This document shows positions 26,044 to 44,566 of a stretch of DNA of 64,000 nucleotides, in pieces. The notes below the pieces were generated by a model. That model was not told the DNA's origin and ran no database searches. It worked only from the letters and a program-made list of their open reading frames with translations. Source of the stretch: Cliona cf. orientalis (taxonomy: Eukaryota > Porifera > Demospongiae > Clionaida > Clionaidae); contig OZ005689.1 in NCBI GenBank assembly GCA_963930775.1, forward strand, positions 30,023,079 to 30,087,078, given 5' to 3'. Position numbers and translations under genes: made by a program. The first letter of the stretch is position 1, and the number at the start of each line of letters is the position of its first letter.

Positions 26044-27184
26044 CAGATGTGGTTGTTGTGTTGTTGTGTGGCGTACTTTTTCTGCACTCTGTCACCCGAC
26101 ACCCAATTACAATTGATTGTAAACATGTTGGTGAGTGGTTGCATGGGGTGCCATGCATGTAGTGGGATTAGATGAGAGTTGCAATAAGGTGGACATGCAC
26201 GGCTATACTAAAGTGGGGGGTGGTCTCCACAATACATTCTAGAGCTGCTCTTGATTGTACAGTATAAGCTGCTTAACTGGGACACCTACATGAACAGGTA
26301 GCCCCATTAAGGACCTAGAGAGCACTTCACATAAGTATCATCAGTATATCAGTGTACATCGGACACTTTCTGAATTACACAACACTCAAATAATCTCAGA
26401 CATTATAGTAAAATAACACAGAAGTACACACAATTTGCAGTCCCCCTTCATCCAACAAATTAAAATGGGAATAATTAGGACTCAGGGGAGTACATGAACC
26501 TTTACATCCCATCCCAACCACCAATTTCTACTAACTCTTTTAACTACTCCACCCCCCGCTTTGCATGTGCATGTGCTAACTCATAACCATGTGTCAATTT
26601 ATGCAAATAAGTATGATATCCCATTATGATGGCTCATACACGTATATTATATGCATGTATATTCAATAACTCACACATTGTGGCAGCTGCAGTGCTCTCA
26701 TCAAAGTCTCCTGTTGTGAGTGCAAGTGTACATAGAGGGAGTTGCAGACACACTGCAAATTGTCAGTGTGTTTCTGGGTTATTGCCCGTCTTCAGTACAA
26801 CGTACCCTCATACAATAACAATTATGGTAACAAAGGATACATGGATGTACTACCATAATGCCACCTCCTATATGAGAAAATAGAGAACAATAAACACCTT
26901 GAGCACCACTTGGGCTCTGACTTAGGAGCACCACTCGGGCTCTGACTACAGAACCACAGCACCACATGTACATGTATAATAGGTAAGTAATTTTTTCTAT
27001 TTAATGCTCACTAGTACAATTATCAAGCACAAGTCTAAGTTCAGTGTGTTTCAAAGCTAAAACACATACATGTACATGTAATTTTGGTGCCATAGTTCCT
27101 TCAGGAGCTACATCTAGGCTCACACTTCTAAGGAGTACCACTTTCAGCTGAACTTAATTTACAATCAAATTCTGAATACTATAT
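26044..27184 (+). repeat. Direct repeat copy 2, inserted in the PHD exon
   Basis: A second copy of 23998-24868 with an extra ~280-bp block (26252-26535), inserted within the Ulp1-PHD frame. It is flanked by a 76-bp direct duplication of the target. No terminal inverted repeats or poly-A tail are visible. The long duplication suggests repair of a widely staggered break using nearby DNA, or a non-LTR-type event. Confidence 0.85.
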
Positions 27185-28269
27185 ACGTCTGAATCACCAA
27201 AAAATCTCTTGGGATGTCCATGCAGTGTTGGTGATACCACACATCACATGAATCACACTGAGCCATCACATCCCCTTCTACCTCTGGCATGCGACTAGAA
27301 CAGTGAAGCTCAACCTCCTGACTATTCTTTATATTAGAATGCCTACGCTTGCCAACTATGGGGAACCGTGAAAGGTGGCACTCTTCCAAGCACTTGAGCA
27401 AGTGTTGTCTGATTGACTTATGGTTGTACTTAGCCTTGCAGGGGTCATTCCCACAGCAAATGTCGTAAGCAAAAGCTATAGACAGGACTCCACAGTCTGA
27501 GCCATTAGATTGTTTACCAACATCCATCACTCTAATCACAAGCTTAGTGGCAGATGTGAACAACAGGCTGGCTATGACATTAACGGTCGTGGAAGACACA
27601 GAATAGTACATGCTGTCGTACACATTGACAACACCTTCGCTACAACCCGCATTGGAAACAGTGCACCAGTGGTTGCCTCCAACACATAGAATCTGAACAA
27701 ATTCTCCCCTGTGGACTTGGAAAGCCTTGGTCTGAGCGAGTGTGGGTGGCTGGAGACCGGACATGTGGGGAAACTGCTGCAGTATGAGCAACTGAGCGGC
27801 TGAAATCACATTGTCATTCAGCCATCCAGAAGGAGACTCTATCGTTTCACGTTCTCCATCACTGAGTGTGTACAGCACGTTATTAAGCCAAACATTGTTA
27901 CCAGCTGGCATATGGCTGTTATCTGATTCCTCAGAGTCTCCTGTGAGGTCTATGGCAGGCAAAGGAGACTTGCTACGGGTACAGTTGCACCTCTCCAGAC
28001 ATGCTGGATCGCTAATTGCATCACAAATGGACACTGTGGGACTTTGACACCACTCATCCAATGGAATGGAGAAGTTGCAGCTAGAGACCGTCAAATCCTT
28101 GCTCGAGTAACGTCCACTGAGAACACCATTCTTACTGGAAAGACGGTAGAATTTACCCACAACTTGGACAATGCGGCATGGGACATGGCTGTCGATTACC
28201 TTTCTACTATGCACAAATACACAATCTCCGGGCTTAAGCTCAACACTGTCATGGTCTTTCTTACACATA

Positions 28270-29035
28270 CTCAGGCCAGTTAAGGACTGGGACCAGCTAA
28301 ATTTCACTGTTTTTACCATGTCTTGTAAGAATAGTTACAGCAAAATGAAAAGTAATAAAGTAATATGACAGTTATCCCAGGTTCTTCAACCTTTGATGTG
28401 GCTAATGACACCTCTTTTAGCCCCGCCCATCAAACTGCAATGGCTGCACCTCCATTTTCGTGGAAGCACTTCAGTCAACATGGATGAGCTAGGCGGGGAA
28501 CTTCTCGGCCATGGATCAGCTAGATAGCCATAGTAGTAGTTTCTTACTTTGATTTATAACATTTCTGTAGTTTGCAATTTTTAAAATGATCGTTCATTTG
28601 GTAGAGAGAGGTAAAAATGTACAAAAGTGCCACTCCCACTTTCTATATAAAGCCTTCCTTTGGGAAACTGGAGGGGTAAGTTATAAATTGCAAACGACAG
28701 ATCTTTAGATATTACTTACATAAGTAGTATGAGCGACAGAACTCGCCGAACCATCTTGTTCCAACACCCCGCCTAGCACAGTCTATCTATTCCTACACTT
28801 CACTACTAGCGGGTGTGGCTTAGGTCACATTACCTGTCAGCTGCTCCAAAATCGCCATTCAGAAGGTCTGTTACTGGCTGTACATGGATGAATCATTGAT
28901 AAACTCAAAGGATTATCACGTATGCACTGGATTTTCGGTGTGAAATTCGTCAATCTGGGAGATAGCTGTACGGTGGGCGGGGACCCTGCTATGAATATCA
29001 TTATCGCGCGGGTCCCAGTCCTTAACGTGTCTGAG
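28270..29035. mobile_element. TA-flanked DNA element in the transposase-Ulp1 frame
   Basis: 766 bp with inverted ends CTCAGGCCAGTTAAGGACTG and CTCAGACACGTTAAGGACTG (reading inwards) and TA on both sides (28268-28269, 29036-29037). TA duplication suggests a Tc1/mariner-type MITE. Excision joins codons VH to MCKKDHD without changing frame. Confidence 0.82.
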
Positions 29036-31669
29036 TATGAACTTTGTCAGATTCGATCGTATCATCCGATTCTCCACACTTGGAGTGGCCAAGATTGCTT
29101 GATGGAGCAGGCAAAACATCATCAGCACCAAAGAGGACACGACTGGATCGATTCCTGCTGTTCATAGGACAGTACGCCTTGTGTGCATGATTCAATGACC
29201 CACACACACACAGACTACCACTGATTAAGTCGTCGTCATGCATCCACTCATCACTTAATTCATCAACATTGCTGTCTGAAGAGACACAAACAACAGGATT
29301 AATGTCACTATCATTGTCACTTGATCCAGACAGTGTGACACTGTTGTGTACCAAATCTGGAACATTAACTCTCCTCTTCTTGTTCAGAGGACAGTCCTGT
29401 GTTTTGGACGACTGTGATTAGTAGACCCACACTTGCATTTGCGTTTCACACCAACTTTTGATACTGTATCGGCTTCATCATCGGAACCGTAGGTATCTTT
29501 GCCATGTGCCTTGGACCACTCCTTGCGACGCTGGGAGTCCAAGACTCTCTCCTTCTTCAGTTGAATTCTACGTCTTTTTGCTACTTCTGTCTTTGCCAAG
29601 TCTATTTCAGCCTTTCTCCTTCTATTCAATGCCTCAAGCTCTTCCTCAAGGCCTTCAAAAACTGGCAGCCCAAGACGCCGAAACAGCTCTGGAACCCAGT
29701 GATAGGATGGGCCATGCTTGCTGTACATGTAGGTCATGTTGGACTGCAGTAGGCCCAGGTTGGTTGCGGTCTTGTAATGAAGCCATTCCAGGTGAATGTG
29801 CTTTGGTCTGAATCTGATGAACACACTATGTGAGGCTTCTAACCAATTGGAGCGGCCTCGCTTCAGGATGGGGTGAACCAGGATATCAGCCATAGAAGCT
29901 CTGCGATTACATTCAATTTCATATGCAAGGGAGTGTAGAGGACAGGACAAAATGTGCTTAGTGTGGTAATTTTCCCCTTACACTCAAAGTTCTCCCTGTC
30001 CCCACACTTTTTACAGCTACACACTTTGAGAGGATGAAAGTCGCACTGTCCCCCAACCCACTCATGTTGGTCACGTGCATGTTTGGGCAATGCTCTCAGT
30101 CTGGTTGAAAATTCTTCTGGTGATTGTGACTCACTAAGAATAAAGGAAAAATTATTGCGTGCTCTCTCTATGAAAGAATCAGACAGACACCCACAGCCAA
30201 TGCTGTGCTGCTTTTTACAGTGACACACTACATCACGCACCAGTGGAAATTTTTTACCATGCATAGCTATAAAGTCCTCTGAAAATGATTTCATTTTAGC
30301 TGGGTTTTCAAGCTGTTTTTTGTGGGCCCTACCAGCATGGCCTCCACAAATCATCACCTTGGTGTCACCAAAGTGCTCTACTACTACATTGGAGGAGGAG
30401 TCAGCATCCTGCCAATGCACTTCGATGCGTAAACCTTCCTCTTTTGCCTTCTTTAGAGTGAGCCGTGCACCGTACCCTTTTGCGGCTTTTGACGTACCTT
30501 GTTAGAGATCTCCCTGAATCACTTTGTCCCTACCTTTCTGACAAAGATGGACATAGTACAGAAGAGCTCCAGTAAGGTTGTCATGTATGCTAAAGGTGGC
30601 ATTTTTTGAATGATATCCACGTGTCATCCAAGTGCCATCGGCAGAGGTGACAGCTCGGGACCACGAACCAAGATGAGTCTGATCCATTGCTTTCATGTCA
30701 TTTTTTGCCTCCTCACACATGTCATCAACCAGCCGCTTGACAATGGGATACATCTTAAGTATGGTTGACATGAATGCATTGGCACCTACTGCATCAATTC
30801 CGAGAGCATACCGGAGCACCTTGCAATAGGTGGCATGAGTACACCCAGCCACAATGAAGGCCACTTGTACTGCAGTTCCTATTTTTGTCGTGCCTTTAAA
30901 TTTTAAAGAACTTTCAAAGGGAATATGATGCATAAGGCAACCATTACATGAAAAGGTTATGGAAATAGCACCTCCCAGTCCACTCATCTTAACGGAAGAG
31001 GGGATAAGAATGCCTGAACAGCCTGGTGTCACACAGCACCGACTAGCATTTAATAGTTGAACAGAAGTGTTCAGCTGCTTTAATTCTAAGAAGCACACAC
31101 TATCTGGTATGGGAACTTCAAGACTGACTCGATGTGCCCAAAGAGTCTTTTGGGGAGTTGGAATATAAAATGACTGATTGGACACAAACGAAACATCAAG
31201 ATCAGAAAACTCACCTTTTTCGTTGCCAGAATTTACTGGACTCTCCACACTACCAGTCACACCCTATAATCCACAAAATGTACATGTACATATAATATTA
31301 TACACACATCAGTAGAAAATAGTACAGTAGTAGTCAAACTATACAGCACTTGCATATCACGCCAAAACTCTATGGACTTGATACTCATGCAGTCGCATAC
31401 TCAAGGCCCCCCTTTACTTCGCACACTCAAGGGCTATCGACTCCCCACATGTAATTGCGCATATTATGTGCATGGAATGTCAATGAGGCCGCTTTTCTTA
31501 TTGATATGGGAATTAGCTGATGTTTATACCGCCTGGGTGAAGTGATGGAAAGTAGGCGTATTGCTTGAGCACAAGCACATCGTCTGTGTCCATAGAAGGG
31601 GTTACTATTTTGGGGTACACTGTGGCCACATTGACACTCTGTGCTACATACTACCTACATGTGCATGCC

Positions 31670-33861: not shown

Positions 33862-33865
33862 TTAA

Positions 33866-34070
33866 AGGGAGGGTTGCATGAAAAAATTATTTTTTATTTT
33901 TTTTGCTAAATAGGCTCCTTATATGTAAATAATAACATCCAGAATATTAAAAATGTTGTGTATGTCGTGATCTCTGAAATACTAGCACTTCTATTATGCG
34001 CTCTGCATGCTGCATCCGCTTGTGGTCGAATGTAGGTGTGGCTACGCGTGACGTCACTGAAGGAACCTCG
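33866..34070 (+). repeat. Kolobok left terminal inverted repeat
   Basis: About 205 bp, the reverse complement of ~38700-38902, with few mismatches. It includes an A/T-rich block near the tip and GTGGCTACGCGTGACGTCAC, containing a CRE-like TGACGTCA, at its inner edge. Both divergent genes start just inside it, so the repeat probably serves as promoter for each. Confidence 0.92.
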
Positions 34071-34133
34071 TGTACTCGAATACTGGAGCAGTAGCGCATA
34101 GCCAAGTCTAGTCGATCAATGGAAGAAGAGAGG

Positions 34134-34920
34134 GACGACTAGTGATCGCCGACTTTCCGACAGTCAAGACGGATCGTCTGTTGATTCAAATGGTAGCCAA
34201 TCGTCTGACAACCAGAGCGATCTCAGTCTTTCCTGTTCTTCCTCGCCTTTTGAGGGTCACGGTGACGAGACCGATGAAGAGGAGGCTGAAGGGACTATTG
34301 AACCATACCTGTACGAACCATCTGCAAGCTCTAGTGGCGAGTCAGTTGATAGTGATGACTCTGAAGACCTTAGCCGTCTTAATACTGATTGGTGAGTGAA
34401 TATCCATTGTTCTGTGGTGCAGTAAGGCTGGCAATCTTGCTATGAATTATTGTTTGGGGGTTTGCTTAGGTGTGAATGTGGAAACTGTCAGGTAATGCCT
34501 ACAGCAAGGGAGTGTGTATGCTGTTGTGAGATTGATCAAGTCAACGAAAAGAAGCAAGAGACCTGGAGTGGTAGCGAAGTGGCCTGCATAGTTGATCATG
34601 AAGGCTTCGAGTCGGTCTGCTTGAATGTGTGGGTGCTGCAGGCTGCCTACTTTGCGTACAGATATCACTATGGTGAAGTGGGAGGTCTAACACACGAGTG
34701 AGTGATCCTTTAGGTTTGTGACATTCTTAAGTTACCAAAAGTTTTCTGTCTATGAAGGAGATACAAATTTGTTGCATATTGTCAGCTGACAGGGTGGTGT
34801 TGGGGGTGGCTTGGGAGGAAAATGAGAGTGATTCTCCCGAGTTGTGCAGTGACAAAAATTAGGAGTACTTTCCCCTCTGCTGCTTACACAGGATTTAAGT
34901 ATCCAAATACTAGTACTTAA
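34134..34920 (+). CDS. P2X7 ballast-domain-like cargo protein of Kolobok
   Basis: Three exons: ~34134-34391, 34470-34697 and 34758-34920, with donors G/GTGAGTG and A/GTGAGT, acceptors TTAG and GAAG, and matching phases. Exon 1 encodes an acidic Ser-rich leader (DSDDSEDLSRLNTDW). Exons 2-3 encode WCECGNCQ, TARECVCCCEID, ACIVDHEGFESVCLNVWVLQ, RYKFVAYCQLTGWCW, RVILPSCAVTKIR and TGFKYP. This is the pattern of the zinc-binding, guanine-nucleotide-binding cytoplasmic 'ballast' domain of vertebrate P2X7, including the Cys clusters and the ILPSC...IR..FP signature. No membrane segment or channel domain is present, so it is not a receptor. The ATG at 34118 is out of phase by one base with this frame, so the start is uncertain. 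Confidence 0.85.
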
Positions 34921-35000
34921 GTATTGTTATTATTATGAAAATGAAACCCATACAATCATTGCTAACATGTCATGTAATTATTGCATTGTGTGTACCAAGT

Positions 35001-38000
35001 TCATGAAATACCAAATCGTGATCTGTGTTGTTTTATAGCCGTGTCTTTTTCTGGCCTTTCATACTCGCTACACAGTGGCTCTGGAACCTCAGAAGGTGTT
35101 GCTACATTCCCATCTTTAAATCGCTTGATAGTTTCTTCAATGAGTTCATCCAAGTAACCTACATATATAATATTTTTATTGCATGACAGCTGCATTACAC
35201 CATGCTGGTTGTGTGCATTACATACTGACTAATAGTTCTTACCGTATGTGGGGTCCTTAGTGACCTTTACTATGTAGCCACCCTTTTTATATTTTGGGAA
35301 TACAATACCATATCTGAGTTCTCCAGCCTTGGTGACAGCTTGATCGCGATGTGCATTTTCATTAAAGTGTAATGCAGCTAGCTGTATTCTGACGAAATAC
35401 AATATCATTGTATAAATTAAAATTATTATGTAGATATGTAATGTACCGGCATTCCATCCCTAAATATGAGAATGCAGTTGATTTGGGGGCGAAGTGATTG
35501 ACAACACTGTGGTATGACTCCAGTGAAGATGTCTGATGAGAGGGACACAGTCTAGCGATATCTTTAGTCAGATTCACATTTGTCAATAGTGGAGTAAGCT
35601 TTTCACTAGATTTTGTGTCTGCATAGAGAGAGAAAGCCATGACATTGTCAATTGTAACCATAATAATATGGTTGTTATACCTATATTATACGTACAGTGC
35701 AACCAAGCAAGAGAGCAAAACTTTTATTTCAGAATTTGAGCCTATTTTGACTCATAAAATAAAATCTATTATAGATAAGAGTTTGAAATTTGGTACCAAT
35801 CTTCTTCAACATAAACTCTACATAGAATTTAAATTATGGGATGTAACCATGATTACTTCCATTTTTATGGCTTCATAAGATAACATGGCTCTCCAAAATA
35901 TGTTAGGCACATTAAATGAGTATTGTTTTCGGTTAAGGGTGTGCGCTCTACCCAGTCATGCACATCCATATGAAGTTAATTGGACATGAGTGTAGAGGCT
36001 GTGCAGTGCATTGCTAACCAGATATTGTCCTAAAATCCCTTTCGGAGGGCCAAATATGTTAGGCACATTTTTTCCTATTTAGTTCTAGTTAAGAAATTCC
36101 ACTTGGTGGGCTGATAGCACTTGTAATAAAGTTACTAAATCCCAAATTTGAAGTCTCGACTCCTTACCACTTCCAAGATACAGCCATTTTTATCCAAAAT
36201 CAGTGAAAAATCTATGAAAACTGGCCTGCACATATGTGGCTTCTGTATTAGCTATATATGGGAAATTTGCAATTTTGTAAAACACAATAAAAATGATTGT
36301 TGTGGCCATTTTGATATCAAGTAGGTCTGTCTGTATAGTTTTTAGCCCAAAAATATGGTTTTAAAAAGTTTTGCTCTCTTGCTTGGTTGCACTGTACGTT
36401 TTTTTAGCCATTTCTTATTCTTGTCTCTTCCTTGTAATTTCCCATGCAAGCACTTGGGAAAATCTTTACTGTGTCCGCGGTGCACATTATGAAGGTGATT
36501 ATCAAGGGATAACCACTTGGCTTTGATGATCGTCTCATTACTGTCGGGAGTCGAGGCCACACACCAATAGAGATGGTTTATGATACTTTTTTCCCACTTT
36601 CCTACCACCTCACAGCCTTTCTGTTTTGCCAGAGCTTGAACCTTCTTGCGCAAACCTTATGATACACAATGACATGTAAACAAGCATGATGCATGTATTT
36701 TAAATTAGGTGCTGAATCAATTATAGCTGTTACGTACTGTAACAGATTCAATTCCCACATACATGTCATACACTATGAACAGGGGCATGCAATGCATACT
36801 ACCCCAGCCATACATCTGTATATTATAATATTATATCCCTTACCGTTTGCGACGTGCCAAACGTCATAAAAATGTTGAATGTTAGGGTGGGTTTCTCGTA
36901 GCCACTTATTGATCTGTTTGTGCCGGTCAGTGACGATTATCTCAATAGCTACCTTTTGCTGTTTCAGGTACTTCATCACACGACATAGTCCCTCTTTCTC
37001 CATGTGATAGCTTCCTCCTACTTCATTGCTCTATAATAATTGTGAGGGTGTTAATTGAATTATAAAATCATGATCTCCATGGCAATCACATAATAGGTAA
37101 TGATATCCTATAGTGAACAAGAAAGTGCTTACACACCTGAACTAGCTTAAAATCAATGACTTTATTGCATGTTAACTCCACCAAAGTGTAGCAACCATAT
37201 TTGGCACTGTGCCCTGGACTATCTGCACGCCCGTCACCTGCAACCACCATTGATTTTTTCTCACGCCTAAACCCACTAAGTAGTGCCTGTTGATGTTTTC
37301 TCCATACGCTGTTGATGGCAGGCCACATGAAATCACTTTGATGACGAAAGAAGGCTGATTGGCTAATGGCTTATGGCGGCACATTTCAAAACTAGAAACA
37401 GTCTGAGAGCCTTAGATGGAAGGGAACCAGTGTAGAGTATTTCGGATGACAGAAGAACGTTTCCAGCCGGTCTACTCCCAATGAAAGGTTGGCTTTCCCA
37501 TACACGCTTTTTCCCACAATCGTTACATGATTTTATTACTCTCAAAAAAGTTCCATTTACCACCTTCTTAATTTGCGTGCTCAAACATCCACAATAGGCA
37601 CACACTTTAAAAAGAAGTAGAAGGGCTGACTCAAACACAATATATATTTATTGTGGTACACGTGCAAGTGAAGTATCAGTAGCATCAGACATGCCAGTAT
37701 AGCATAATAATAATATTATAGCATCAAGTAATGTGTAAATTTTCACCTACATAGTGCTTTCTTGAGATAGGTGGAAACTCTGGTCTGTATGAGTATCTTC
37801 AATATCTAGCTCTGACTCAGATGACTCGGCAAGATAATGTGGGGGAGTAGACATAGCAACAGGAGGCACTTCACACCGAACACTAGCAAGCATAGGAGGT
37901 AGCGAGCACTGCACACCAACATCTCGAGTACATACTTGCGAGCCCACTTGTACTTCTAATAATAATGATTTACCTTCTCAGTGTGTATGTATGTATACGG

Positions 38001-38651
38001 TATGGATTATGGGATACCTTTAGAGTGTGACTTCGGCTTTGTTTGAGTCCGGATATTCCTTCTGCATGGGCTGGCTTGGATACCTATGCTTAGCTGTGAT
38101 TTTTCTATGGGTGTACTAGTGGTTGGATTCAGAGTTTCAATATCAGCAGCCTCCTCAGGGTGGTTAGAATCAAGCAATTCATCAACAATCTATGATAATA
38201 ATACTGTTAGTTTTTGCCTATAGCTATCCCATGACAATACTAAAGTAGCTACTGCTTACCCTTATCCTTTCTCGTTTTTCAACGGCTCCTCGTGCACGTT
38301 TACTGGAGGTAGCAGCCAGAGGATCAGCGGACCTTTTCCGCGGTACTCGCTGATCCTCAGACCCTGAACCTACTGAAGACTGCCGCTTAAAAATTGTGGG
38401 CACAGCGTCTGGTTTTAGCCTTCTTTTTTTAGAAATGCCAAACGTCGCTGCTATGGCAGAATCGACTTCAAAGGAATCCTCACTGAAGTGCTCGCTACAA
38501 AGAACAGAGTGCTTGGTTGGTGTCCATTGGGCACGAGTCCTGACTTGTTTCACCCACTTTTCTCTGAGTTTTGGATCGGCAGGAAACTTGTGTAGACTTA
38601 TACGTTCACTAGGAGTATTGAACAGCCAGCTGCAACGCAGCGATTCACCAT
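35001..38651 (-). CDS. Kolobok THAP transposase (nine exons, small lesions)
   Basis: Exons (high to low): 38651-38260, 38190-38018, 37955-37751, ~37629-37137, 37030-36844, ~36647-36398, 35618-35447, 35398-35243 and 35159-35001, nearly all with GT..AG borders. Exon 1 is a THAP zinc finger: MVNRC, AAGC, then W.P....LCSEHF and DAVPTIF. Exon 4 has CAYCGC..CNDC and the core GDGRADSPGHSAKYG. Exon 5 has IVTDRH and HFYDVWHV. Exons 7-9 give SSLESYHS..FAPKS, KYKKGGY and the C-terminus. About 730 residues. Lesions: a one-base loss near 38622 in the THAP exon and a 7-bp near-duplication near 37375. The exon 3-4 phase is unresolved. The enzyme cuts and pastes the element into TTAA. Confidence 0.9.
35695..36394. 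mobile_element. TA-flanked MITE in the Kolobok intron 6
   Basis: 700 bp with ~28-bp inverted ends CAGTGCAACCAAGCAAGAGA and TA at 35693-35694 and 36395-36396, fitting Tc1/mariner-type insertion. It sits within 3 bp of the exon-6 splice donor (AAAAAAC/GTA); the original donor would read GTATAA. Confidence 0.9.
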
Positions 38652-38699
38652 ACTGTACGACCTCGTGCCAGAAAGCTAGTGCAAGCGCCAATATCACTA

Positions 38700-38902
38700 C
38701 AGGCAGGTTCCTTCAGTGACGTCACGCGTAGCCACACCTACATTCGACCACGAGAGGATGCAGCATGCAGAGTGCATAATAGAAGTGCTAGTATTTCAGA
38801 GATCACGACATACACATTTTTAATATTCTGGATGTTATTTACATATAAGGAGCCCATTTAGCAAAAAAAATAAAAAATGATTTTTTTCATGCAACCCTCC
38901 CT
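38700..38902 (-). repeat. Kolobok right terminal inverted repeat
   Basis: The complement of 33866-34070; ends AACCCTCCCT before TTAA. The transposase ATG lies ~50 bp inside it. Confidence 0.92.
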
Positions 38903-38906
38903 TTAA

Positions 38907-39609: not shown

Positions 39610-42480
39610 CAGGGGCGTAGCCAGGGGGGTTTCCTGTTGCCCAGAACCCCCCCCCCCACCACCATAATAATAATTATACTTACTGAATAACTTACTTACC
39701 TACACTGCCAGCCTGCTAGTACTGACCTGCCTAACGTCAAACCACACCCAGCTAAGTTCAGGGGTGTGGTCTGCAAGGTCACGTTTATTGCATGTGATCA
39801 CCTTGCAGCTGGCCTGCTATAGCTAGTATGTCAAAGAGGCAGGGGTCTCTGTTTTCCTATGGTTTTGTGGGAGGCAGTCTTCAATCAGCTTCAAAGAGAG
39901 TCAGATCATTATCTCCAGAAGCTTTAACTCAGTCCCAGACTAGCTCCACTCCAGAGGAAGAAAATTATCAAGCTTCTGGCACTCAGAACTCAGATCTACT
40001 AAGGAACTGCTAGATGTACACAGTCAACCACCAAGCACAGACCTTGGCAAATACAGTGAGACGGAAATTGTACGTTTTACTAATGAACAAAAATATTGGC
40101 TACTAAACCATGCTTTTAGACCTGGCTTAAATTTTAAATTCCCGTCAAAAGTAGAGTATTCTAAAACGAGGTCATTCCAGCATTCGTGGGTACGAGAATA
40201 TCCTTGGTTATCATATTCAATTTCACTTGATGGTGGCTACTGTATACACTGTATGCTATTTGCTAAGAATAGGGGTATTCTTGGGCAACTAATTACTTCT
40301 CCTATGATAAATTTTACTCGTGCAACTCGCACACTCAAAGAGCACAATACACAGCAATCGCATCTCATGGCTATGGAAGATTCAGCTTCGTTTACTGGAA
40401 TAATGGAAGGTCATCAACTATCTGTACAGCAACAGTTGCAAGACCACGGTTCCAGGCAGATTCAGAAAAATCGTGAAATTTTAAAAGCCATTCTGAAAGT
40501 CATAATTTTTTGTGGGAAACAAAATATTTCTCTTAGATGGCACCGGGAAAGCATGTCTAGTAATGCAGGAAATCCTGGAAATTTCATATCCTTGCTTCAT
40601 CTTCGAATGGATGCAGGTGATGTAGTTTTGAAGGAGCATTTTTCTTCTGCTGCCAGAAATGCTCGGTATCACTCCCCTACTGCTCAGAATGAACTTGTAG
40701 CAGCATGTGGGGAGTGGATCCAAGAGAAGATCTTACTAGAGGTACGAAAAGCTAAATACTTCACTGTATGTGCTGATGAGGCAGCAGATGTATCAAACAA
40801 AGAGCAACTTCCCCTTGTATTGCGATTTGTTGATGAAGCTGGTACGATTAGGGAGGAATTTGTTGAATTCATTCTATGTGAATCTCGTACCACTGGTGAA
40901 GCACTCGCTCGTACTATTACCAGCACCGTGGAAAACTTTGCATTAGATCTCAGCTATTTATGTGGGCAAGGCTATGATGGGGCTGGTAACATGGCAGGCA
41001 AATATAACGGAACTGCTGCTATTATTCAGGATAGTTATCCTAAAGCTACTTACGTCCACTGCACTGCCCATTCACTAAACCTTTGTGTTGTATCTGCCTG
41101 TAGCATCCCAGCGATCCGCAATGCACATGGAGTTCTTCAAGAGATATGTATATTCTTCAATTACTCCCCAAAGAGGCAAGCTGAGCTAGAAAGGCAAATT
41201 AAATAGCTACCACTAGTTGAATCTAGGAGGCAAAAACTTGTTAACCTGTGTAAAACACGTTGGGTAGCGAGAATCGAGGCATATGAAGTATTCATGGAAG
41301 TAATGCCAGCTGTTGTAGGTACCATGGAGATATTCAGTACCGAGAGTGGTTGGAATTCTGAATCATCCCAGAAGGCAGCATCACTCCTTACTGCCATTAC
41401 CGTGTTTATTCAACTAGAATGCAAGCAAAAAAAATAATTTCAAATCTGGTTTGCGCACAATTAGAGTCAAAACAATTCCAGGAAGTGAATTTTCTTGCAT
41501 TAATTAGATGTTGCGTTGTAATAGAACAATTAGCATAGCTTTGTCATGAGCGACGACGAATAGTGGCTGTCTATGGTATCGTACCTGTGCCCCTGGCCCC
41601 GATCATCATGAGGGTAGCCTGAGAAAGGCCTTCTGACAGCCGCGCCGCATGGTTACTAGTGATGCCACTGAATCGTGCTGATCGCAGCCTGAGGCCCTGG
41701 CTGCTGGACTTAGTGCAGTTCCAACTAAGGTCAGTCCCGAGTGTAGTTTAGTACCCTCATGAACGATGAACGACACTCACGATTTGGTTAACTATAGCTA
41801 GCAACAAGTCCGAGAGACAGAGCGAGATATAATATAGAGGCTTCCAGAACGGTTTATTATTAAGCAGGTTTGGTTTAACCGTGCAGCACGCGGTTTGAGC
41901 ATGCGCAATAGCCTCACCTTAGCACTATTGCGCTAATTGGATTCATAGAAAATAATTACAGACAGTTGCTTCCGTTCTAATAGAATGCAAACAATTCCTG
42001 GAATTGAATTTTCTTGCGGTAATTGGATCATGCGTTCTATTAGCATAAACACGGTACTCAATTTGAGTTTCTAATGGCATTTATCATTACCAAATGTGGT
42101 TTTGGCTTCATCAAAGGATTGACAGTGTCCCTCCAGAGTCATTCCCAGGATATCTGTAATGCCTACAACGAAGTTGATAATGTCAAAAGTGCTTTACGTG
42201 AAATTCGTAATGTTGACACTCATCACAGAACATGGTACGATATTGCCATTACTTTGGGAGACACGGTCAATACCCCACCATCAATTCCTCGTCGATGTGC
42301 TCGCCAAATGAGTAGATGCAATGTACCGGGTGACACTCCAGAAGAGTATTATAGGAGAGCAATTACTGTTCCTTTTTTGGATGAGCTCCTTTCACACTTG
42401 GATACCCGTTTTTCTAAGACACAATTGGCTGTGAAAGCATTGAGCATTGTGCCATCAGTACTGCTGCAGTGTGCCATCTC
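39610..42480 (+). pseudogene. hAT transposase, ZMYM1-like (broken)
   Basis: A terminal sequence CAGGGGCGTAGCCAGG at 39610 is followed by MSKRQGSLFSYG at 39828. After a one-base shift near 40010 come a TTF-type zinc-finger region (HSWVREYPWL, GGYCIHCMLF), a DUF4371-like RNase H core (FTVCADEAADVSNKEQ, GQGYDGAGNMAG, VHCTAHSLNL) and KTRWVARIEAYE. Breaks: TAG at 41204 and a 655-bp TA element at 41400-42054. Removing that element joins LLTAIT to QFEFLMAFI in frame. The coding similarity ends near 42455, before the usual C-terminal dimerisation motif, so the 3' end is missing. It was a cut-and-paste transposase. Its 5' terminus matches the 5-bp-duplication MITEs, which it may have mobilised. Confidence 0.85.
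41400..42054. mobile_element. TA-flanked element in the ZMYM1-like hAT
   Basis: 655 bp with ends CCGTGTTTAT / ATAAACACGG and TA at 41398-41399 and 42055-42056. Subterminal blocks are repeated (AACAATTCC.GGAA.TGAATT at ~41469 and ~41990). A fragment of the same right end occurs near 63545-63590. Confidence 0.85.
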
Positions 42481-42497: not shown

Positions 42498-44566
42498 CCA
42501 TTGCATCGAACAAAATAAGATGTTGCCTACTAGCTCAGAAAATGTAGGCCTACAGAACTTTCTGTCCCACACTCTAGCCACACCTGAGCAAGCACATGAT
42601 ATACTCAATTTCAGACAGATTGGACAGGAGGAGTTTGAAACTCATATCAATTATCGTATTCTACGTGACCCTAGTATTAGTGCACCAGAGCGTAGGAAAT
42701 GCTTGCACACATTTGCATCAACAAAGGCACGAAAAAAGAAAGAAAAACAACTAGACCACGAGAGAAAATTACACCAGGCATGCATGAAAAAGATGGTGAT
42801 GTTCTCAAGAGGAGAAAAGATGCCTCAGGTATGTAGTTCACTGTTTACACCACTACCTCTCACTCTGGTTGGGCATGATGGGCTTCCATATAAAGGAAAC
42901 AAAAGTAAGGCAACAGACTTTTTTTGAGACTAGGTATAAGGCGGGTGTTATTGTATCTGACTTCCCACAGCAATGGGTACCCGATTCGGTCATCCTAGAG
43001 GGGATGTTCATGATACAGACACCCCCTTCACCAAGCATAGCAACCTATGCACAGTACTGTAAGCTGCTTGTGACATGATACATCAATCCCCACTTAAAAG
43101 CAGGTGTAAGTCAAGTACACGTTCTTATTGATGACCCTAGCCAAAACATGTCTCCAAAGCAGATAGAGCACACTAAGCGTGATGAAACTTCACAGGTCAG
43201 TTCATCACACACATGCACCACTGTTGACCAATCCATTACTGTACCATCAAAGTGGAGGGATGACCTACTCAACTGTCAATGTAAAAGAGCACTGTGCAAA
43301 TTTCTCAGCATGGAAATACTGAATCAAATCCCTTCACTTCTCTCGGACAACCAGACCCTGCTAACAGCTGGAGGGTTCATTGGCCTAAAACAACACCAAT
43401 GTTGGAGTGTACAGCGAGATGGTAAATCTCAACCATTGCCATATTTACAATCAAATGCAGAGGAAACAGATCTTCATGCTTGGCTTCACTGCATACACTC
43501 ATCTGGGTCAAAGAAGCTCCTGTATTCTCCCGACACCGATGTTTATCACATTGGCTTGCCGATATTAAATCACGATCGGCACTTGGATGTCTTCGTTCAA
43601 CTAAAGGGACGCTCTAAAGATGTTAAGCGATACATCAGAATGGGAGCCTTCATTCAAGCCATTGAAAACGATCCTGATCTGGCACATGTGCCCACAAATA
43701 GATGCACTTTGGTGCTACAGGCTGCTTATGTAGCAACTGGGTGTGACTATACATCCTATTTCAAGGGAATAGGCAAAGTGTTTTTTCTAAACGTCCTCTT
43801 TCAACATGCTAAATTTATCACAGGTGGATCAACCCCTATTGGAAGTTTGGCTGACTTTGACGAGGACAATGCTCACCTAGGGCAATTAGCTTTCATCAGA
43901 CTAGTTGGATGTGCATACCATAAGAAACACGTTTCCGCTTCCAGCCTGAACACCCCTGAAGCACTGTATAATTCAGTGGTAGCCCAAACTAGTGAGGGTA
44001 CTCATAGAGAATGGCTACAAGCAATACGTGTAACCGTATGGGAACAAACAGTGGATGAGAGCTATTATGTACCATCATTTGAAGCACTTGTCCTGCACTG
44101 GAAATGGTGTACCTGGGTGTTACAGTACTGGCAGAAGGCCAAACACCAGACAGTAGTCATGCCACCGCTCACACAATATGGATGGTATGACGAAGAAGGA
44201 AAGCTGAAAGTCAATTGGGACACTGAAGAGAACATGAAGAAGGTGGAAGACCAAGTAGAGTTCTTCACAAAGGGCTGCCGCTGTAAAACGGGGTGTGTTA
44301 TGAAACAATGTAAATGTCTGAAAGCGGGTTTATCGTGTGGACCAAGCTGTCGATGTTTGAACTGTAAAAATAATAATATGCAGTATACATCCCAGAAGCG
44401 GCAGCAAGAAAAAGAGCAAGAGAAGGAGCTAGCAGAAGAAGTAGAAGAGGAGATGAGGAATAATAATGAATATGAATCAGAAGAAAGTGAAGACGATACA
44501 AATCCTAATGATATGGAAGTGGATGAGACTATGAACGAAGTTTTTGGTACTCTATTTTTGGACTAG
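42498..44566 (+). pseudogene. FEN/XPG-like nuclease with tesmin-type CXC cluster
   Basis: Frame begins near 42498 after a possible acceptor CTCCAG. The N-terminal part (EEFETHINYRILRDPSISAPERRKC) is unassigned. The nuclease part shows VLIDDPSQN, EETDLHAWLHCIH, KLLYSPDTDVYHIGL and the helix-2-turn-helix-like ATGCDYTSYFKGIGK, matching the acidic-residue pattern of PIN/FEN nucleases. The C-terminus has a Cys-rich CXC cluster (CRCKTGC, KQCKCLKAGLSCGPSCRC) and an acidic tail. Breaks: one extra T in a run near 42922 and an in-frame TGA at 43076. From 43148 to 44566 the frame is open. It could bind DNA by the CXC cluster and cleave structured DNA. Whether it belongs to a transposon is unknown. Confidence 0.65.

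Follow-up and report, generated by a model that had tools for sequence, protein, structure and literature searches.

A constrained second gene, KolX, related to the P2X7 ballast domain in a decayed Kolobok element of the sponge Cliona cf. orientalis

A 64,000-nucleotide stretch of contig OZ005689.1 from the sponge Cliona cf. orientalis (forward-strand positions 30,023,079 to 30,087,078; hereafter the window) carries a complete though decayed Kolobok element at 33862-38906, bounded by TTAA and by imperfect terminal inverted repeats (TIRs) of about 228 bp. The left end of the element holds a three-exon gene on the plus strand (34119-34920) that is almost certainly KolX, a small protein whose C-terminal two-zinc domain is homologous to the ballast domain at the end of the P2X7 receptor. 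KolX recurs beside Kolobok transposases across the 216.8 Mb genome surveyed and is conserved at the protein level; we favour, with a probability of roughly 0.55, the reading that it is an accessory subunit of transposition. The borders of the element and the parts of the gene are as follows.

33862..33865, no strand: left TTAA, target-site duplication
33862..34089, plus strand: left TIR, about 228 bp, with AGGGAGGG directly inside the TTAA
34119..34391, plus strand: KolX exon 1, acidic and Ser-rich, with an IEPYLYEP motif; the ATG at 34119 is in a different frame
34392..34469, plus strand: KolX intron 1, GTGAGT..TTAG, phase 2, splitting the W of WCxCGxC
34470..34697, plus strand: KolX exon 2, with zinc cysteines in WCECGNC, CC and CIV
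34698..34757, plus strand: KolX intron 2, GTGAGT..GAAG, phase 2
34758..34920, plus strand: KolX exon 3, RYKFVAY..ILPSC..KIR..FP..YTGFKYP, with the stop TAA at 34918-34920
38685..38906, minus strand: right TIR
38903..38906, no strand: right TTAA

The spliced product of 220 residues matches the Pfam family PF20478 (P2RX7_C) with 44.9 bits (E = 1.6e-11; gathering cut-off 23.5) and P2X7 chains in the PDB with a best E of 9.5e-5. Profiles built from database relatives of KolX, rather than from the protein of the window itself, aligned with residues 470-596 of rat P2X7 at hhalign probabilities of 99.5 and 99.4 (E = 1.3e-22 and 3.9e-21). Predicted models of KolX relatives superpose on the rat P2X7 ballast, and no fold other than P2X7 came up in the structure comparison, which was a re-ranking of the Foldseek list only. 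By these models KolX has the fold of the P2X7 cytoplasmic ballast (McCarthy et al., 2019, as cited in PMC9587614; chains 6u9v and 8tr6), and the seven cysteines that hold zinc there are all kept in the window copy (C477, 479, 482, 498, 499, 506 and 572). KolX differs from P2X7 in having no channel part, PF20478 being the sole Pfam match in the 220-residue product, and in retaining only two of the five guanosine diphosphate (GDP) contact positions in most relatives. An earlier sequence-only reading of this stretch, which had recognised the Cys cluster and the ILPSC..IR..F pattern of P2X7 without any channel part and had proposed a profile-profile search against P2X7 C-termini, is borne out on each of these points.

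The splice sites were inferred from the sequence; the three exons, with phases that match across both introns, agree with the same reading, but exon 3 starts at 34758 and the window copy has no usable start codon. The acceptor AG at 34757 was one of eight tried between 34701 and 34800 and places the whole domain in frame, ending ...HERYKFVAYCQLTGWCWGWLGRKMRVILPSCAVTKIRSTFPSAAYTGFKYPNTST-stop at 34920; an alternative acceptor at 34760 is likewise open and gives a product one residue shorter. The sole ATG in the phase of exon 1 within 34001-34400 lies at 34030 and is immediately followed by a stop. Two database relatives (P0011 and P0012) read without interruption through the stretch that matches this broken start, and the THAP match of the transposase lacks profile positions 1-13, which are present in the sister copies L009 and L010; for these reasons the window copy is taken to be decayed. 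The TTAA and TIR borders of the sequence-only reading are confirmed, the TIRs being imperfect. The TTAA target-site duplication is that of the Kolobok superfamily, and the termini AGGGAGGG .. CCCTCCCT follow the form 5'-RR ... YY-3' given for Kolobok, unlike piggyBac, in the sections consulted of PMC9587614. The Kol0 lineage is distinguished by a second protein, KolX, with a ballast fold, found here by the Pfam and PDB matches and by the predicted model of a type-1 relative. The whole feature is probably an autonomous DNA transposon of the Kolobok superfamily, Kol0 lineage, that has since decayed.

A search of the genome for TIRs gave three two-ended copies of this family (the window, L009 and L010, the last with its left TTAA reading TATA) and one lone end. 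All three two-ended copies hold KolX, and no complete copy without it was found, a result that would have spoken against the sequence-only reading had it gone the other way. A profile search placed PF20478 at 25 sites in the genome; manual merging of 25, 60 and 39 matches, with the exons of one gene joined, gave 40 KolX places, some weak matches (for example C7:5620281, C16:6701868, C2:6960600, C2:11375591 and C6:3623185) being omitted. A search started independently from the transposase gave 86 matches, collapsed manually to 27 loci. KolX lies within 6 kb of 24 of these 27 Kolobok transposase loci, compared with 0.002 expected per locus; the remaining three are C1:26197116, C1:26183538 (where one exon matched) and C11:4606791. 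In all 24 pairs, drawn from distant families, the two genes are convergent, as they are in the window, where KolX (plus strand, left end) and the transposase (minus strand, right end) run toward each other; the earlier description of them as divergent was therefore wrong. To call KolX cargo is also misleading, because it is a regular and constrained second gene in this genome.

TTAA and inverted ends (at most 4 mismatches in 24) enclose both genes in 11 of the 26 fetched loci, a count that is not independent because nearly all of these loci were chosen by KolX; L010 is a twelfth by the TIR search. Co-inheritance of the two genes by a Mantel test was not used as support, since r was 0.80 with copies included and 0.37 by family (p = 0.10). 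A pattern scan of viral contigs for KolX gave 10 stretches, none of them a relative. For some of the KolX places that have no nearby transposase, a weak match to one exists farther away (L012 and L018); relics or host genes may account for others.

Comparison of type-1 pairs between families gave, for the 20 pairs listed, proportions of synonymous differences (pS) of 0.71-0.90 for KolX, near saturation, and proportions of nonsynonymous differences (pN) of 0.11-0.33; the corresponding values for the transposase core were 0.79-0.93 and 0.20-0.29. High pS with low pN in both genes indicates that, over the stretches aligned by tblastn to which these estimates apply, the long-term constraint on KolX has been about equal to that on the core of the transposase. 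Only one KolX pair out of the 20 allowed a corrected synonymous rate to be computed, with a ratio of 0.17. Within families (five pairs, with few changes) KolX had ratios of 0.19-1.06 and the transposase ratios of 0.27-1.19. Exon 1 is loosely conserved, yet a PYx[FYML][ED]P motif is found in 11 of the 13 type-1 loci, in ten of them as [I/V]EPYxYEP; the same search gave no match in the type-2/3 loci.

The transposase of the window element appears to be a THAP/DDE protein, encoded in several exons on the minus strand, running from the THAP exon at the right end to the last open frames near 35000.

38224..38712, minus strand: THAP exon, PF05485, 64.9 bits, profile positions 14-87
37363..37647, minus strand: presumed transposase frame that precedes the one with the first D
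37086..37370, minus strand: open frame with the first D, GDGRADSPG
36773..37030, minus strand: open frame with the second D (VTDRHKQI) and DVWH; MULE match at E = 1.2e-4, weak and under the cut-off
36342..36656, minus strand: open frame between the second D and the E, with C/H residues
35695..36394, no strand: insertion of 700 bp nested in what is presumed to be an intron of the transposase, TA-flanked, with inverted ends CAGTGCAACC..GGTTGCACTG
35362..35685, minus strand: open frame with the E, SSLESYHSVV
35001..35228, minus strand: 3'-terminal open frame of the gene, presumably encoding the C-terminal part

The acidic residues of GDGRADSPG, VTDRHKQI and SSLESYHSVV, recognised by eye, are taken by us to be the DDE triad. 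A putative counterpart of the Kolobok hallmark, C/DxxH and a zinc finger before the last E, was likewise read by eye, as DVWH and a possible zinc finger; no catalytic exon of the window transposase had a Pfam match over the cut-off. The 700-bp insertion is missing from both sister copies, the alignments breaking at about 35687-35695 and at 36393. The XKol Kolobok transposases of Xenopus also combine THAP and DDE regions and belong to the same superfamily (PMC6004289), and the portion of that paper compared here does not contain the terms P2X, accessory or second protein.

A second type of Kolobok element suggests how KolX might take part in DNA handling. Five loci (L013-L017) are elements with both ends and with the KolX ballast region in a single open frame. 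Complete copies at L013 (4308-8919, contig C2) and L014 (729-5679, C8) are 99.6-99.8% alike, with KolX frames that differ at one of 230 residues; such likeness on different contigs indicates recent mobility of this family. Upstream of the ballast, nine cysteines with strict CXC-like spacing occur in six of the 12 type-2/3 loci (L012-L020 and L024-L026) and with looser spacing in three more, among them L015, which has a stop inside the cluster. The cluster is in frame with the ballast in L013, L014 and L017. The looser pattern was run first on nine loci and afterwards, to provide a control, on the full set of 26: its nine matches in the type-2/3 loci all lie upstream of KolX and on the KolX strand, whereas the 13 type-1 loci gave one strict match (L023) and two looser ones (L021 at 590-623 on the minus strand, in low-complexity sequence, and L023 at 377), each lying some 4 kb away from the KolX of its locus.

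The nine cysteines are invariant across seven CXC-like segments, and the spacing was not reproduced in any of 20000 shuffles for each of five proteins. Among 56 proteins the cluster is found in five, one of them the L013 reading itself, most of the others being too short upstream to tell. The best Pfam match was a weak one to preSET_CXC (E = 0.11, in one of the seven segments); a PDB search with the segments gave no meaningful match, only one angiogenin row at E = 0.68, and hhalign against the TCR/CXC-like segment at window position 44276 gave 75%. A THAP domain lies upstream of the transposase in 17 of 21 type-1 loci, compared with none of six type-2-like loci. This test took in 26 of 102 THAP rows; the remainder, inspected by eye, included none close to a type-2 locus or to any of the four type-1 loci that lack THAP. 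The presence of the CXC-like cluster on KolX where no THAP is found on the transposase is a hint, from sequence patterns, that KolX may share DNA handling with the transposase. Unless they result from wrongly fused gene models, two tick proteins mentioned in PMC7016195 that combine an N-terminal THAP or TolA region with a ballast would agree with this hint. A ribbon-helix-helix-like N-terminus of the type-2 transposase, suspected by eye, is not claimed, since the one Pfam match returned was weak and unrelated (E = 0.16).

The spacing between the CC pair and the following zinc cysteine is six residues in rat P2X7, 18-20 in type-1 KolX (14 of 15 matched rows) and four in type-2 KolX (14 of 15), the two odd rows having picked up an earlier CC. 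In a tree built to place P2X7 among the KolX lineages, type 1 forms a single clade (94/100); P2X7 is not part of this clade and groups weakly (23/47) with type 3 and part of type 2, on a branch of 3.6 changes per column that leaves its placement unsure. The type-3 ballasts (L012, L017 and L018) show R or K in place of the sixth zinc cysteine, C506, in three rows, and K at 574. One database protein (P0016) joins the KolX C-terminus to an integrase core (PF00665), perhaps because the frame continues into a nested element.

The best reading of KolX is still that it has a role in transposition, perhaps exerted through DNA binding. The protein has an acidic, Ser-rich N-terminus bearing [I/V]EPYxYEP and the C-terminal ballast, and may act in the nucleus as a non-catalytic subunit required for transposition, with the ballast as a zinc-stapled scaffold that links transposase, DNA ends or both. 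The CXC-like cluster of the second Kolobok type would give KolX a DNA contact of its own. A more specific version is tentative: KolX would be the second, DNA-handling subunit of the Kolobok transpososome, with the DNA-binding module carried either by the transposase (THAP) or by KolX (CXC-type), and the P2X7 ballast, whose cysteine spacing is nearer to that of CXC-bearing KolX than to that of the lineage in the window, would be a retired transposition subunit.

Among the alternatives, an unlikely one is that KolX counters host control outside the transposition reaction, for example as a zinc protein of the nucleus that keeps the element from being silenced. Such a role would suit a conserved second gene whose acidic, Ser-rich N-terminus, with its linear motif, looks like a region for interactions, but nothing points to a host target, and the CXC-like cluster of type 2 suggests contact with DNA. 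Much less probable is a GDP/GTP sensor that licenses transposition by cell state in the manner of the nucleotide-bound P2X7 ballast. The contact positions R546, H547, R574, R578 and K583 of P2X7 read K, F, V, R and S in the window KolX. All 38 KolX rows compared have R or K at position 546 and 37 keep R578, and the sponge domain may still bind GDP, as suggested in the text of PMC7016195 compared; against this, H547, R574 and K583 are replaced in every row, so the nucleotide sensing put forward by the sequence-only reading is unsupported. Guanine-nucleotide contacts are not common to every member of the P2RX7_C/ballast family, according to the same source (PMC7016195). The residues that are kept thus favour a zinc scaffold over a nucleotide sensor. 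About as little credit goes to the view that KolX is a captured host gene, a passenger unnecessary for transposition. The ballast domain does occur in host genes, P2X7 and Nanor (sections of PMC9587614 and PMC7016195), and 16 of the 40 KolX places (for example C1:33573624 and C17:5815083) have no transposase match within 6 kb; a passenger would hardly be expected to occupy one constant side and run toward the transposase in every one of 24 pairs from distant families, to be present in both Kolobok types and to show constraint resembling that of the transposase. Despite the missing start in the window copy, a chance cysteine pattern in an open reading frame that is not a gene can be dismissed, given the Pfam, PDB and hhalign matches, the constraint and the presence of KolX in three of three two-ended copies and at 24 of 27 transposase loci.

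The name KolX, its ballast fold with seven cysteines and the occurrence of Kol0 in sponges among other hosts are due to Kojima and Bao (2022; PMC9587614, in the sections compared), whose Kol0 KolX resembles that of the window in being a second protein beside a DDD/E transposase, with a seven-cysteine ballast, TTAA and RR..YY termini. In those sections P2X7 is described as the fusion of a P2X4-like gene with KolX, and Nanor as another likely domesticated KolX. The ballast fold and this origin of P2X7 are already published; the transposon source of the P2X7 domain suggested by the sequence-only reading thus stands as the same inference, already in print (sections 12 and 16 of PMC9587614). The text of that paper compared here does not mention the convergent orientation, [I/V]EPYxYEP, selection on KolX or the CXC-like cluster, which are noted here. 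Short ZCD/NANOR-like proteins with a C-terminal ballast occur Metazoa-wide, including in a sponge, and two from ticks carry the N-terminal THAP or TolA mentioned above (Rump et al., 2020; PMC7016195, in part). That paper treats them as host genes with synteny, and its main text, as compared, has no word beginning 'transpos-'; many of these proteins may be KolX. Searches of the open-licence literature for KolX with Kolobok, or for any two of Kolobok, tesmin and ballast domain, found only PMC9587614, and those for Kolobok/P2X7/nanor, P2X7-ballast/transposon and CXC/P2X7/transposon gave, among the matches listed (titles and abstract openings), no other paper combining these. The CXC-like/THAP contrast and the census of constraint and orientation are possibly new, none having been met in the literature compared. 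The zinc domain of a drug-target receptor thus exists also as a free-standing, constrained protein within transposon families, and a role for KolX in the transposon would show the purpose of the domain before P2X7 acquired it.

Other probable mobile sequences lie on either side of the element. Frames at 27165-31263 on the minus strand match a Mutator-like transposase (PF20700) with 27.5 bits against a cut-off of 26.5 and, downstream, a PHD finger (28.6 bits) and, weakly, the Ulp1 protease, whose 19.5 bits stay under the cut-off of 20.7; these domain matches probably represent another DNA transposon with a SUMO-protease-like gene. A frame of 420 residues at 39944-41206 on the plus strand matches DUF4371 with 93.9 bits and presumably encodes a hAT-like transposase. 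At 43079-44566 on the plus strand, a 495-residue frame contains a tesmin/TSO1-like CXC segment (PF03638, 21.9 bits, under the cut-off of 23.5), and its protein possibly belongs to a further mobile element.
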